From Rhizobium sp. BK399 (lineage in GTDB: Bacteria > Pseudomonadota > Alphaproteobacteria > Rhizobiales > Rhizobiaceae): a stretch of 64,000 nucleotides of DNA. The stretch lies in contig NZ_JACIAH010000001.1 of NCBI RefSeq assembly GCF_014194695.1, positions 62,001-126,000 of the forward strand, written 5' to 3'. Position 1 is the first letter of the stretch. Each line of letters begins with the position of its first letter. Position numbers and translations under genes: made by a program. A model generated the notes under the pieces. It was not told the origin of the DNA. It ran no database searches and saw only the letters and a program-made list of their open reading frames with translations. Shown here one piece after another: positions 6,518 through 16,125 of the stretch.

Positions 6518-6567
6518 TTGAGACTCAAAAGTTTAGAGGCTAATGTTGCAATGTTCAATCTTTGTTC
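6518..6567 (+). promoter_or_regulatory. dinB promoter with LexA (SOS) box
   Basis: TTGAGA (6518-6523), a 17-base spacer and TAATGT (6541-6546) make a good sigma-70 promoter. GTTCAATCTTTGTTC (6553-6567) is a perfect alphaproteobacterial LexA box, GTTC-N7-GTTC, placed over the expected transcription start. Confidence 0.8.
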
Positions 6568-6572
6568 TCATC

Positions 6573-7862
6573 ATGACACTTGTGAGCGCCACGACATCAG
6601 GCTTCTGTCGCGACTGCCTTGCCGAGCAGAAGGCAGAAATGCGCCGCTGCAGGGCCTGCGGTAGTCCCCGTCTTGTACGCCATCAAGAGCTCTACCAGCT
6701 GACACTGGCGCACATCGACTGCGACGCCTTCTATGCGACAATCGAGAAACGCGACAATCCAGAGCTTGCCGACAAGCCCGTTATCATCGGCGGCGGCAAG
6801 CGCGGGGTGGTCTCGACCGCCTGCTACATTGCCCGCATCCACGGCGTTCGCTCCGCGATGCCGATGTTCAAGGCCTTGGAAGCCTGCCCGCAGGCAGTCG
6901 TCATTCGACCTGACATGGAAAAATACGCCAAAGTCGGGCGTGAAGTCCGCACGTTAATGCAGGAGCTGACGCCGCTCGTTCAGCCGCTTTCGATCGACGA
7001 GGCATTTCTGGAGCTTGGTGGCACCGAGCGGCTGCATCACGATCCGCCGGCGCGCACCCTCGCCAAGTTCGCGCAGCGCATCGAGAAGGAGATCGGCATA
7101 ACCATCTCCATTGGCCTGTCCTACTGCAAGTTTCTCGCCAAGGTGGCGTCCGACCTGCATAAGCCTCGCGGCTTCTCAGTGATCGGTCGAGAGGAAGCGG
7201 TTTCATTCCTCGCACCCCGACCGGTGACGACAATATGGGGCGTCGGCAAAGCATTTGCGGCCACTTTGGAGGCTGACGGTATTCGCACCATCGGCCAGTT
7301 GCAGACAATGGAGGAGAACGACCTCATGCGCCGATATGGCAGCATGGGCCAACGACTCGCGCGCCTTTCTCGTGGGATCGACGATCGCGAGGTGCACCTG
7401 AACGATGCGGCAAAGAGCGTTTCGTCGGAAACCACCTTCTTCGACGATATTTCCCGCCACGATGAACTCGTTCCGATCCTCCGCAGTCTTTCCGAGAAGG
7501 TCGCCTGGCGGCTGAAGAAGCACGATATCGCCGGCCATACGGTGGTTCTGAAAATGAAGACGGCGGACTTCAAACTGCGCACCCGCAATCGCAAGCTCGA
7601 AGACCCGACACAACTTGCCGACCGGATCTTCCGCACCGGGCTGGAGCTGCTCGAGAGGGAAACGGACGGGACGAAGTTTCGCTTGATCGGAATCGGCGTG
7701 ACGGATCTTTGCGATCCCGCTCGCGCCGATCCGCCCGACCTCATCGATGTGCAATCGGGCCGCAGGGCAGCTGCCGAAGCTGCAATGGACAAACTGCGCG
7801 ACAAGTTCGGCAAAGGCACTGTTCAGACCGGATACACCTTCGGCGGTAAGCGCGATCACTAA
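6573..7862 (+). CDS. dinB: DNA polymerase IV (translesion)
   Basis: A Y-family polymerase that bypasses lesions and makes -1 frameshifts under DNA damage. The N-terminus has a small zinc-ribbon-like CxxC...CxxC (CRDC and CRAC, about residues 12-30) that enteric DinB lacks. The polymerase motifs follow: [12 protein letters not shown] with the first metal ligand, SIDEAFLE with the catalytic Asp-Glu, then the HhH region and the little-finger domain up to about 390. A clamp-binding QxxLF motif is not obvious at the C-terminus. The frame opens at 6543, but that ATG lies in the -10 box; ATG 6573 is the first one downstream of the LexA box. 429 aa. Confidence 0.95.
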
Positions 7863-9194: not shown

Positions 9195-12695
<3,501 letters not shown>

Positions 12696-12775: not shown

Positions 12776-12800
12776 GGACCGCATGGCAGCCATGCGGTCC
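12776..12800 (-). terminator. Hairpin ending the small SOS transcript
   Basis: An 11-bp perfect stem (GGACCGCATGG with CCATGCGGTCC) and a 3-base loop, 10 bases after the stop of the 28-aa gene. There is no U run, so termination is inferred from stem strength. Confidence 0.5.
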
Positions 12801-12809
12801 CCTGAATTC

Positions 12810-12896
12810 TTACATTGCCATGCAGATCAGCGAGAAGCTGGCAACGAACATTGCGATGGAGGTGAATGCTGCGATATCACGGATCATGTCAGTCAT
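12810..12896 (-). CDS. SOS-controlled 28-aa single-helix membrane protein
   Basis: Twenty-eight codons. The charged start MTDMIRD is followed by about 20 hydrophobic residues ending in SLICMAM, long enough to cross the inner membrane once. AGGAG lies 8 bases before the ATG. Upstream, TTGACA-17-CAAACT has a perfect LexA box in its spacer, and a strong hairpin follows the stop, so this is a compact one-gene SOS unit of about 140 bases. Size, topology and control match the design of SidA (29 aa), the LexA-repressed Caulobacter protein that blocks division by binding FtsW. I do not claim sequence homology. It is too short for most gene finders. Confidence 0.7.
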   Translation of the reverse strand: MTDMIRDIAAFTSIAMFVASFSLICMAM

Positions 12897-12923
12897 TTGG
12901 CTCTCCTGTTCTCTTATGTTTTC

Positions 12924-12952
12924 AGTTTGTTCCGCTCTTGTTCTATTGTCAA
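12924..12952 (-). promoter_or_regulatory. Promoter with perfect SOS box for the 28-aa gene
   Basis: On the minus strand, TTGACA (12947-12952), a 17-base spacer and CAAACT (12924-12929). The spacer and -10 edge contain GAACAAGAGCGGAAC (12929-12943), the reverse complement of GTTC-N7-GTTC. The LexA site therefore covers the polymerase site. The divergent gene at 13000 could be affected too. Confidence 0.75.
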
Positions 12953-12999: not shown

Positions 13000-13584
13000 A
13001 TGCTTAAGTTTGTCTTAATTGTTGGATTGGCTTGGTCGGCAGCGTTTACCGCTCGGGCCGAACAAATCGATCCCGCGCGCATCATTGACGCGACGACGGG
13101 CGATTGGGACGGCGACGGGCATGAGGATCTCGCGCTGCTGGTTGCTCCGGAAGATGACGCCAGCGACGATCAGATCGGCATCTACCTTTACCTTCGCGAC
13201 AGCGATCACGAGCTTCTGCGACTTTCGCTTACCGCGCCCGACAAGATTTGGGGCAGCACCAATGCCAATGGCGTCTTCGGGCAGGAACCGTCATTGAAAG
13301 CCATTGGCAAATCCTCGATCGCCATCCACTCACAGAACAGTGCGATCGGACGCGACCGCTGGGACCAGACGCTGACAGTGGCCTACCGCAACGAGCAGTT
13401 TGTCGTCGCCGGCTATACCTACAATCACTACGACACGCTCGACCCGAATGCCGCCGGCTCCTGCGACTACAACGCGTTGACCGGGAAGTTGCAGAAGGAT
13501 GGCAAGGACGTCAAAGCCGAGCCACGTGTCCTCCCGATCGCTGAATGGAACAACGAGACCGGGCAATCCATCTGCGGCCAGTGA
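13000..13584 (+). CDS. Exported hypothetical protein with Asp-rich repeat
   Basis: A 194-aa protein. A clear signal peptide (MLKFVLIVGLAWSAAFTARA) precedes DWDGDGHEDLALLV, an FG-GAP/VCBS-like calcium-loop sequence near residue 38. The rest is beta-rich with two late Cys residues (about 158 and 192), so it is probably a periplasmic propeller-fragment protein of unknown role. GGGGAGAAAAGC precedes ATG 13000; the longer open frame from 12820 lacks a start signal and overlaps the small SOS gene. It lies between two LexA boxes. Confidence 0.75.
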   Translation: MLKFVLIVGLAWSAAFTARAEQIDPARIIDATTGDWDGDGHEDLALLVAPEDDASDDQIGIYLYLRDSDHELLRLSLTAPDKIWGSTNANGVFGQEPSLKAIGKSSIAIHSQNSAIGRDRWDQTLTVAYRNEQFVVAGYTYNHYDTLDPNAAGSCDYNALTGKLQKDGKDVKAEPRVLPIAEWNNETGQSICGQ

Positions 13585-13589
13585 AGCAT

Positions 13590-13604
13590 GTTCCCTTTTT
13601 GTTC
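13590..13604 (+). promoter_or_regulatory. SOS box upstream of the DUF5680 gene
   Basis: GTTCCCTTTTTGTTC, a perfect GTTC-N7-GTTC LexA box, 50 bases before ATG 13655. A clear -35/-10 pair was not resolved around it. The GAGGGGG ribosome binding site follows at about 13640. Confidence 0.65.
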
Positions 13605-13654: not shown

Positions 13655-14119
13655 ATGGATATTGCTGCATTGAACCGGTTCATCGTTGAGGCGAAGGCCC
13701 GTACCTATGTTGGCGGCGGAACCCCTGCACCCGCCTGCCGGACAGGATCGCATGACATCGGTTATCAGCGTGGACAGTGGCGCTATCTCGACAGCTATTT
13801 CGGCGGCGCCGATTTCGCCGGGCAAGAAGTGGTTTGGCTGGACGGCGAACCGGTCTGGGCGATGAACTACTTCGGACGCATCGTCGAGCATTCGTTGATC
13901 GACGGGAAAAGAGCGGGAACGGTGATTAAGGCTGCACTGTCAAAAATGTATGCCGAGTACCGACGTTTTCTCGGCGGCATGGAATTCGAGCATGCTTTCG
14001 GTTTCTATGCCGATCAAAACACAGGCGACTGCAGCCATTTCAGCGGTCGTGAAGTGATCGTCGTGAATGAGCGCAGGGCCTATGAACTGGACTACCGTGG
14101 CGGTCTCATCCAGCCCTGA
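13655..14119 (+). CDS. DUF5680 domain protein, likely SOS-regulated
   Basis: A 154-aa soluble protein. The core WRYLDSYFGGADFAGQEVVW followed by PVWAMNYFG is the DUF5680 signature. That domain is often attached to transcription regulators of the XRE type; here it stands alone without a DNA-binding part. Function unknown. GAGGGGG lies before the ATG. A perfect LexA box 50 bases upstream puts it in the damage response. Its stop codon abuts the stop of lolD on the other strand. Confidence 0.8.
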   Translation: MDIAALNRFIVEAKARTYVGGGTPAPACRTGSHDIGYQRGQWRYLDSYFGGADFAGQEVVWLDGEPVWAMNYFGRIVEHSLIDGKRAGTVIKAALSKMYAEYRRFLGGMEFEHAFGFYADQNTGDCSHFSGREVIVVNERRAYELDYRGGLIQP

Positions 14120-14803
14120 TCAGAAATCCACGACCTTGCCGTCGGTGATCGTGACGCGGCGGTCCATGCGCCCGGCGAGTTCATGATTATGGGTGGCGAT
14201 GAGTGCCGCCAGGCCTGATTGGCGCACCAGCGCCTCCAGTGCGTCAAAGACATAGCTCGCCGTTTCTGGATCGAGGTTGCCCGTTGGCTCATCCGCCAGA
14301 AGCAGGCTTGGCGCATTGGCGACGGCACGGGCAATCGCCACGCGCTGTTGCTCGCCACCGGAAAGCTCCCCGGGGCGGTGCGCACCGCGATGGCCGATAC
14401 GCATGTAGTCGAGCAACTGGCCGGCTCGTTCCTTCGCCTCCTTGCGCGGCAACCCGGCGATCATCTGCGGCATCATGATATTCTCGATCGCAGAGAATTC
14501 CGGCAGCAGGTGATGGAACTGGTAGACGAATCCGATTTCGCTACGGCGGATCGCCGTACGCTTATCATCCGGCAAACCGTCACAGGCATTTCCGTTGATG
14601 ACAACCTCGCCGCCATCGGGATGCTCGAGCAGGCCAGCAACGTGCAAAAGCGTCGACTTGCCGGTCCCTGATGGAGCGACGAGCGCAACGATTTCGCCGC
14701 TGTTGAGCGTGAAATCGGCACCCTTCAAGATCGAGAGCAGCGTCTCGCCCTGGCCATAGTGGCGCTCGACGCCGGAAAGCTTGAGAACGGGATTCCGCTT
14801 CAT
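14120..14803 (-). CDS. lolD: Lipoprotein-releasing ABC transporter ATPase
   Basis: A 227-aa ATPase. Walker A is APSGTGKST, the signature is LSGGEQQR, Walker B is [12 protein letters not shown] and the H-loop is IATHNHEL. It powers extraction of outer-membrane lipoproteins from the inner membrane with the LolC/E permease encoded just upstream. ATG 14803 ([19 protein letters not shown]) lies 14 bases after the lolC stop. A 21-codon upstream extension in the same frame overlaps lolC and is rejected. Confidence 0.93.
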
Positions 14804-14817
14804 GAAGAGAGCATTCC

Positions 14818-16125
14818 TTATTCGTAGCGCAGGGCTTGCACGGGATCGAGCTTGGAGGCTCGCCATGCCGGAAAGATCGTCGCGATGAAGGACAGCGTCA
14901 ACGCCATGATCACCACGGACATGGTCTCGCTGAAGCTCATCTCGGCGGGCAGTTGGCTGAGGAAATAGAGCTGCGGGTCAAACAGCACCGTGCCGGACAC
15001 CCAAGAGAAAAACTCGCGGATCTTCTCGATATTGACGCAAACAAGAACCCCGAGCAGCACACCGGCGAGCGTCCCAACGAGGCCAATGGCAGCGCCCGTC
15101 ATAAAGAAGATGCGCATGATCGCGCCAGAGCTCGCGCCCATCGTCCGCAGGATCGCGATGTCACTGCCCTTGTCCTTCACCAGCATGATGAGGCCGGAAA
15201 TGATGTTCAGCGCCGCAACGAGGACGATGAGCGTCAGGATCATGAACATCACGTTCCGCTCGACCTGCAGCGCGGAGAAGAAGGTCTGGTTGCGCTGGCG
15301 CCAGTCAGTAATCGCAATCTGGCGGCCCGCGGCGGCCTCCACCTTCGGCCGCATATTGTCAATGTCGTCGGGATTGTCGACGAAGAGTTCGATGGATTGA
15401 ACCAGCCCCTCGGCATTGAAATAGAGCTGCGCTTCCTCAAGCGGCATATAGATGATCGTCGCGTCGTATTCCGACATGCCGATCTCGAAGATACCGGAGA
15501 CCTTGTAGGACTTGACCCGTGGGTTTACACCCATCGGCGTGACATCACCTTCCGGTGATATCAGCGTGATGGTGTCACCTGCCTGAAGGCCGAGCTGTGT
15601 CGCCATACCCGAGCCGATAAGGACACCCTGTCCCGCGGCAAAACCGACAAGATCGCCGGACTTGATGTTGCCCGAGACCGTCTTAACCTTTTCAAGGTCC
15701 TCGGGCCGGATGCCGCGCACCAGAGCGCCCGTGCCCGCACCGCCCTGACCTGAGGCCAGGGTCTGGCCCTCGACCAGCGGCAGAGCAAGCTTTATGCCCG
15801 GCACGCCGGCAAGCTTGTCGGTCAGCGCCGGATAATCGTTGAACGGCGTATCGACCGGCTGAACGATCATGTGACCGTTGATGCCGAGAATGCGGGAGAT
15901 CAGTTCCGTCCGGAAGCCGTTCATGACAGCCATGACGATGATGAGCGTAGCAACCCCAAGCATGATGCCGATGAAGGAAAAGCCGGCGATCACCGAAATG
16001 AACGCTTCCTTGCGGCGGGCGCGCAGATAGCGCCACGCCACAAGCCGTTCGAAGGCGGAAAATGGCCGGCTGGCCGGCGCCGAGCCGGATTTAGAACCCT
16101 GCTGGCTCACCGCTACATCTGCCAT
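14818..16125 (-). CDS. lolC: Lipoprotein-releasing ABC transporter permease
   Basis: A 435-aa FtsX/MacB-type permease. One helix near residues 45-65 ([20 protein letters not shown]) is followed by a large periplasmic MacB-like domain, then three helices near residues 295-430. The [15 protein letters not shown] start is typical of LolC/LolE. Most alphaproteobacteria have a single such permease acting as a homodimer. It lies 16 bases after proS and 14 before lolD, so the three form one operon. Confidence 0.93.

Follow-up and report, generated by a model that had tools for sequence, protein, structure and literature searches.

Directly upstream of dnaE in Rhizobium sp. BK399, and on the same strand, lies a 28-codon open reading frame (ORF) preceded by a ribosome binding site and a LexA-type box (Table 1). 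We examined it within a window of 64,000 nucleotides, the whole stretch of DNA that was analysed, starting from an original prediction of a SidA-like micro-gene under LexA control. The frame and its own ribosome binding site are present as that prediction described, as is the perfect box, which lies 47 nt upstream of the ORF start; the dnaE ATG follows 114 nt past the ORF's stop codon. The proposed single membrane helix is also predicted, with a best 19-mer Kyte-Doolittle value of 2.12 (2.06 for the ORF of Caulobacter-like genomes described below). Two 28-mers were searched against Pfam and NCBIfam, and neither matched a family.

Table 1. Features of the sidA-like locus and its surroundings in the window (positions count from the first letter of the window).
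Feature	Position	Strand	Basis or remark
28-codon ORF, probable sidA orthologue, MTDMIRDIAAFTSIAMFVASFSLICMAM	12810..12896 (ATG at 12896, stop ends 12810)	-	sequence, conservation, pN/pS
AGGAG ribosome binding site	12903..12907	-	sequence
Third LexA-type half-site AAAC, 7 nt past the box	12918..12921	-	[GA]AAC kept in 84/86 unique upstreams
Proposed -10 CAAACT, weak	12924..12929	-	sequence only; CAAAAT in some relatives
Perfect LexA-type box GAAC-N7-GAAC, GAACAAGAGCGGAAC (GTTCCGCTCTTGTTC on +)	12929..12943	-	sequence, genus conservation
-35 hexamer TTGACA	12947..12952	-	sequence, genus conservation
25-nt hairpin between 28-aa ORF and dnaE, without T-tract	12776..12800	-	folding stability
dnaE (DNA polymerase III alpha), downstream neighbour	9195..12695	-	start taken at ATG 12695
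lolD-type ABC ATPase, upstream syntenic neighbour	14120..14866	-	same strand; two other genes between
194-aa protein gene	13000..13584	+	weak FG-GAP repeat matches; divergent from micro-gene
DUF5680 gene	13655..14119	+	
Second perfect LexA-type box	13590..13604		50 nt upstream of DUF5680 gene
dinB-type polymerase IV gene (PF00817/PF11799)	6543..7862	+	
Perfect LexA-type box at dinB	6553..6567		overlaps listed start

By itself the box means little, since the bare GAAC-N7-GAAC pattern is not enriched: it occurs three times in the window against 2.4 expected, and at 213 places genome-wide against 200 for a reversed control pattern. Of 86 unique upstream sequences from the genus Rhizobium, 85 carry the exact box at -46 to -48 and 84 a triple half-site array, GAAC-N7-GAAC-N7-[GA]AAC; such conservation at a fixed spacing does not look like chance. 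The promoter of the original prediction stands in part. Its TTGACA element is present and conserved (TTGAC[ATG] occurs inside the 100 nt upstream in 86/86), but the proposed CAAACT matches TATAAT at only three of six positions and was not called by a promoter scan of the locus. The -20 to -1 stretch, which holds the ribosome binding site, is less variable than the DNA further upstream.

As proposed, the hairpin downstream of the ORF folds with unusual stability (-23.9 kcal/mol, z -3.66), but it has no T-run, and a terminator scan between the ORF and dnaE called none. The idea of a stand-alone transcript of about 140 bases closed by a terminator is therefore unsupported. Among 76 distinct stretches downstream of the ORF across the genus, 53 fold with a z below -2, and the hairpin is kept in much of the genus while its sequence changes; it is possibly an attenuator or processing site.

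Selection on the 28 codons distinguishes the ORF from a chance frame. The original prediction held that the gene would fall if a synonymous pattern were absent; across 65 distinct coding sequences (from 112 loci) pN/pS is 0.172, and nucleotide diversity is 0.25 at third positions versus 0.025 at second positions. The other two frames contain stops in 65/65 and 55/65 of these sequences. The ORF was matched in all 37 genomes of the genus, its own included. From 271 stretches of named genome contigs encoding a relative, we kept the 80 titled Rhizobium or Rhizobiales bacterium, and a dnaE N-terminal motif lies within 900 nt in 73 of them. A chance ORF was rejected on the codon-level selection and, by this pattern of substitution, the 28-codon micro-gene is a real gene.

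Other putative SOS-type genes lie nearby. In the 80 named loci we counted 66 relatives of the DUF5680 gene; the start region is visible in 65, and 62 of these have an exact box within 120 nt; judged by its promoter sequence, this gene is probably an uncharacterised SOS gene. Because the listed start of the dinB-type gene overlaps its box, translation probably begins further downstream. The genes dinB, divK, pleD and dnaE all fall inside 10 kb.

Beyond the genus, a single-sequence search (E<=1) matched 159 of 297 Rhizobiaceae genomes and left 138 without a match by sequence alone, while an alignment search (E<=0.1) matched 145 of the 297 genomes in 54 of 109 genera; in both searches some matches are spurious or mobile. 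Sixty Rhizobiaceae loci were fetched, of which 46 of chromosomal type were kept and 11 of mobile type plus three others set aside. Among the 46, the product is exactly 28 aa in 44, and 42 have an exact box, rising to 45 when one mismatch is allowed. The fetched flank holds dnaE in 41, two of these with dnaE more than 1 kb away, and the remaining five have both ORF and box but no dnaE within about 4 kb on either side. The unit is present in Shinella sp. PSBB067 and Sinorhizobium sp. K101. In S. meliloti Ak57 (CP090106.1), an ORF and double box lie between a LolD-type ABC gene and dnaE. The ORF is unannotated there, which bears out the expectation that annotation would miss it for the single annotated S. 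meliloti record examined. Although titled 'plasmid pSymB', that record is probably a mislabelled chromosome, given its length of 3.7 Mb and the presence of dnaE and a gene for proline--tRNA ligase. We also sampled 24 genomes from the order's other families; one of these encodes a 29-aa version, preceded by a box and followed closely by dnaE. The box and ORF unit was not found in Methylobacterium bullatum (searched with the exact box) or in genome G637 of the same order. Two further matches were discarded, one (G047) with neither box nor ATG start and one (G101) inside a long frame.

Because sequence searches weaken with distance, we read the DNA upstream of dnaE instead, defining the unit in the class survey as a box followed by a hydrophobic ORF of 24-42 aa. 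A dnaE match was obtained in 312 of 337 genomes of the class, and 100 upstream regions were read, mostly from the top of the listing. The exact unit occurs in 19 of these 100, spread over ten families (reverse-complement control 1, shuffles 0), and in 21 when one box mismatch is allowed (control 2); it is absent from the other 81 and 79, respectively. At least one of these units (L248) looks unrelated. Of the 100 class loci, 59 have a relative of the lolD-type gene no more than about 900 nt upstream of dnaE.

The order most relevant to SidA was found through DivK and PleD, and its choice followed from PleD similarity, with genome G632 scoring 669 bits against a Caulobacter PDB chain and Rhizobium 456. 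From protein similarity and gene order, family f89 and its order are probably Caulobacteraceae and relatives. As markers for Caulobacter, crescentin (PF19220; 0/55 genomes over cut-off) and MipZ (PF09140; matched in all 14 control genomes) proved unsuitable, and two other candidate orders (those of G677 and G475) consist of one family each and are not Caulobacteraceae. Within the Caulobacter-like order, 286 of 299 genomes were matched and 50 loci read, 30 from the search and 20 from f89; most carry the dnaE nearest to that of Rhizobium, families f171 and f190 were left out, and two of the 30 search loci, being without orientation, were excluded from the count. All 20 f89 loci have a LexA-type box and a single-helix ORF upstream of dnaE, with 29 aa in 19 and 31 aa in one; 11 of the boxes are exact and all 20 have at most one mismatch (for this wider count, reverse-complement control 0, shuffles mean 0.1). 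Among the oriented search loci (f191, f192 and one more from f89), all 28 carry a box with at most one mismatch, against 3 in the control and 0 in the shuffles; 14 of these boxes are exact (control 0, shuffles 0.1). The box and ORF unit is universal among the loci read in this order. In 13 of the 20 f89 loci a nucleoside hydrolase gene adjoins the ORF, which sits between it and dnaE; the other seven have no such neighbour.

This arrangement can be compared with published gene numbers for C. crescentus. SidA, 29 aa long, is described as residing in the inner membrane, interacting with FtsW and inhibiting division (PMC4211646); its start codon was re-mapped by ribosome profiling (PMC4117421). 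Two ftsW mutations, A246T and F145L, are reported as suppressors of SidA (PMC4211646). The sidA gene is CCNA_02004 (PMC11034885), CCNA_02005 is a nucleoside hydrolase (PMC3667746), and dnaE is CC1926 (PMC1839093), which we infer to be CCNA_02003, the CC and CCNA numbering systems being different. By these numbers, C. crescentus sidA is probably beside dnaE, matching the position of the 29-aa ORF in f89.

Rhizobiaceae and Caulobacter-like peptides align without gaps from Met1. The partner here is the positional 29-aa ORF of Caulobacter-like genomes and not the named SidA record CCNA_02004. Both sets share R6, A10, S13, F17 and V18, with similar residues at positions 7 (D/E), 11 (F/L) and 14 (I/V). 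Seventeen registers (-8 to +8) were compared, using 81 distinct Rhizobiaceae peptides of 28 residues, after removal of two that differed in length, and 16 distinct Caulobacteraceae-like ones of 29 residues, after removal of the 31-residue peptide. Register zero scored best at 6.78, followed by 4.02, with column-permutation p values of 0.0002-0.0008; a BLOSUM-scored version (20 and 14 peptides) gave p values of 0.001-0.006. An hhalign comparison gave 70% probability over residues 1-19, with a single-comparison E-value and shallow alignments. The likeness is short, limited to the first 19 residues, and W19/M20 of the Caulobacter-like set are missing from the Rhizobiaceae consensus. A comparable start, [basic or polar]-[DE]-x-x-[ASG], is seen in most other families of the class when they are aligned by that motif. 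Shared position beside dnaE, LexA-type box, size, predicted topology and this start-to-start alignment now favour orthology, in keeping with the original prediction. With good confidence, we regard the rhizobial 28-aa protein as a likely SidA orthologue which, by analogy with Caulobacter, is predicted to halt septation via FtsW/FtsN after LexA cleavage.

In such a system, LexA would bind the double or triple half-site array and silence the TTGACA promoter, and DNA damage would free it through RecA-driven LexA cleavage. SidA would then be made, insert N-terminus-in and, as in the Caulobacter model, could lock FtsW/FtsI/FtsN inactive. The lack of a recognised terminator and the presence of an S. 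meliloti small ORF (sORF) in the dnaE1 5'-UTR make a shared transcript likely, and this would likely raise dnaE too, such that one damage promoter would serve both 'stop dividing' and 'finish copying'. A sidA-dnaE unit is the simplest reading. C. crescentus dnaE has been reported as SOS-regulated, and LexA-site comparisons in multi-chromosome alphaproteobacteria recovered dnaE (both as given in PMC3323433). The case for joint induction is weakened by a 2025 paper on the SOS regulon of Caulobacter, whose main text is silent on dnaE.

The sORF in question, sORF25 of S. meliloti 2011, is reported as ribosome-occupied in the dnaE1 5'-UTR (Hadjeras et al. 2023, PMC10117765). From its place upstream of dnaE it is probably the rhizobial sidA-like ORF: like the 28-aa homologue of S. 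meliloti Ak57, it lies ahead of dnaE, although the main text of that paper is without mention of LexA or SOS. The same study (PMC10117765) lists SEP6, a protein of less than 30 aa in the membrane fraction, which could also be a relative.

The fixed place of the ORF ahead of dnaE (41/46 Rhizobiaceae and 73/80 named loci) and the stable hairpin between them could also point to a leader peptide whose translation would do no more than control dnaE in cis, as a uORF or attenuator, the product itself being inert; Hadjeras et al. suggest that sORFs in 5'-UTRs may work as uORFs (PMC10117765). An inert product, however, fits poorly with selection on the amino acids and a transmembrane segment (an alignment of 20 sequences has nine invariant columns out of 28), or with the 5/46 Rhizobiaceae loci where ORF and box persist and dnaE is missing from about 4 kb either side. 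Plasmid-borne sidA, moreover, is reported to restore viability in Caulobacter (PMC4211646). We consider this explanation improbable.

Still less probable is an SOS membrane protein of the TisB kind, which would depolarise the membrane and bring on dormancy with no specific block of the divisome. TisB is a small SOS-controlled single-helix protein, and the rhizobial peptide resembles it by description in size, SOS-type control and single helix, whereas position, box and the start-to-start sequence match all favour SidA. Another reading is convergence, in which Rhizobiaceae and Caulobacteraceae would each have acquired an unrelated small membrane protein at this LexA-controlled position. The permutation p values are modest, and the f67, f83 and f141 peptides, which fit the SidA-like start poorly, share little past size and helix. 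Residues R6, acidic 7, A10, S13, F17 and V18 are nevertheless shared without gaps, and intermediate-type peptides exist, such as KDIAALISVGAFIW in f35, leaving independent origin with a very slim chance.

Some relatives appear outside this setting. At seven loci (L185, L187, L197, L198, L209, L211 and L214), SidA-resembling peptides of 29-33 aa (e.g. MTGFIQDLCAFASMSIFVAVFLTYIGAFS) have no LexA-type box; the two contexts examined hold a RecE-type exonuclease (L197) and exonuclease VIII with RecT (L209). Lambda kil is a division inhibitor in a recombination operon, and by analogy the phage-type peptides may be phage-borne division inhibitors. Against phage genome records, one such peptide gave two matches at E=3 and the other none, and an IMG/VR scan with A1 gave 74 pattern matches, none confirmed. 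One genome (G338) has three similar 44-aa ORFs (L194, L195 and L196) that start MIRDLAALASI, with no exact box and no dnaE in the fetched flank; they represent a repeated, probably mobile relative.

Taken more widely, these patterns could reflect an ancestral alphaproteobacterial checkpoint: a LexA-controlled sidA-dnaE unit joining a divisome brake to the supply of replicative polymerase, retained in Rhizobiaceae, three families of the Caulobacter-like order and ten more families of the class. Phage-type recombination modules would have copied it, minus the LexA box, and would block host division much as lambda kil does. We put the chances of this scenario at about even. The open-licence PMC papers that we searched yielded no named SOS division inhibitor from rhizobia or their relatives, no data on damage or division from a rhizobial member, and no SidA orthologues reported outside Caulobacter. 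If correct, the assignment of the rhizobial ORF to SidA would provide a named candidate SOS division inhibitor in rhizobial model organisms, account for the LexA site apparently credited to dnaE by earlier comparative work (PMC3323433), and suggest a role for a translated, unexplained S. meliloti sORF. The FtsW-contacting residues might also be read from the diverged SidA variants (R6, acidic 7, A10, S13, F17).

Among known systems, SulA of E. coli is likewise an SOS division inhibitor but targets FtsZ and, as described in PMC4211646, is not widely conserved beyond gammaproteobacteria. YneA, ChiZ and SosA are damage-induced membrane inhibitors of septal wall synthesis, though from Bacillus, Mycobacterium and Staphylococcus; low-confidence AF3 models place SidA on the other side of FtsW TM7 than these three (PMC13396833). 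Caulobacter DidA is a small single-helix division inhibitor acting on FtsW/I/N, but it has 71 aa and is reported as SOS-independent and DriD-driven (PMC4211646). The rhizobial protein differs from C. crescentus SidA in its C-terminal half, and its promoter has two or three half-sites. It resembles SidA in predicted LexA control, size (28 versus 29 aa), predicted single helix and, by gene numbering, a place beside dnaE, and it shares R6-[DE]7..A10..S13...F17-V18 in register with the positional Caulobacter-like ORF.
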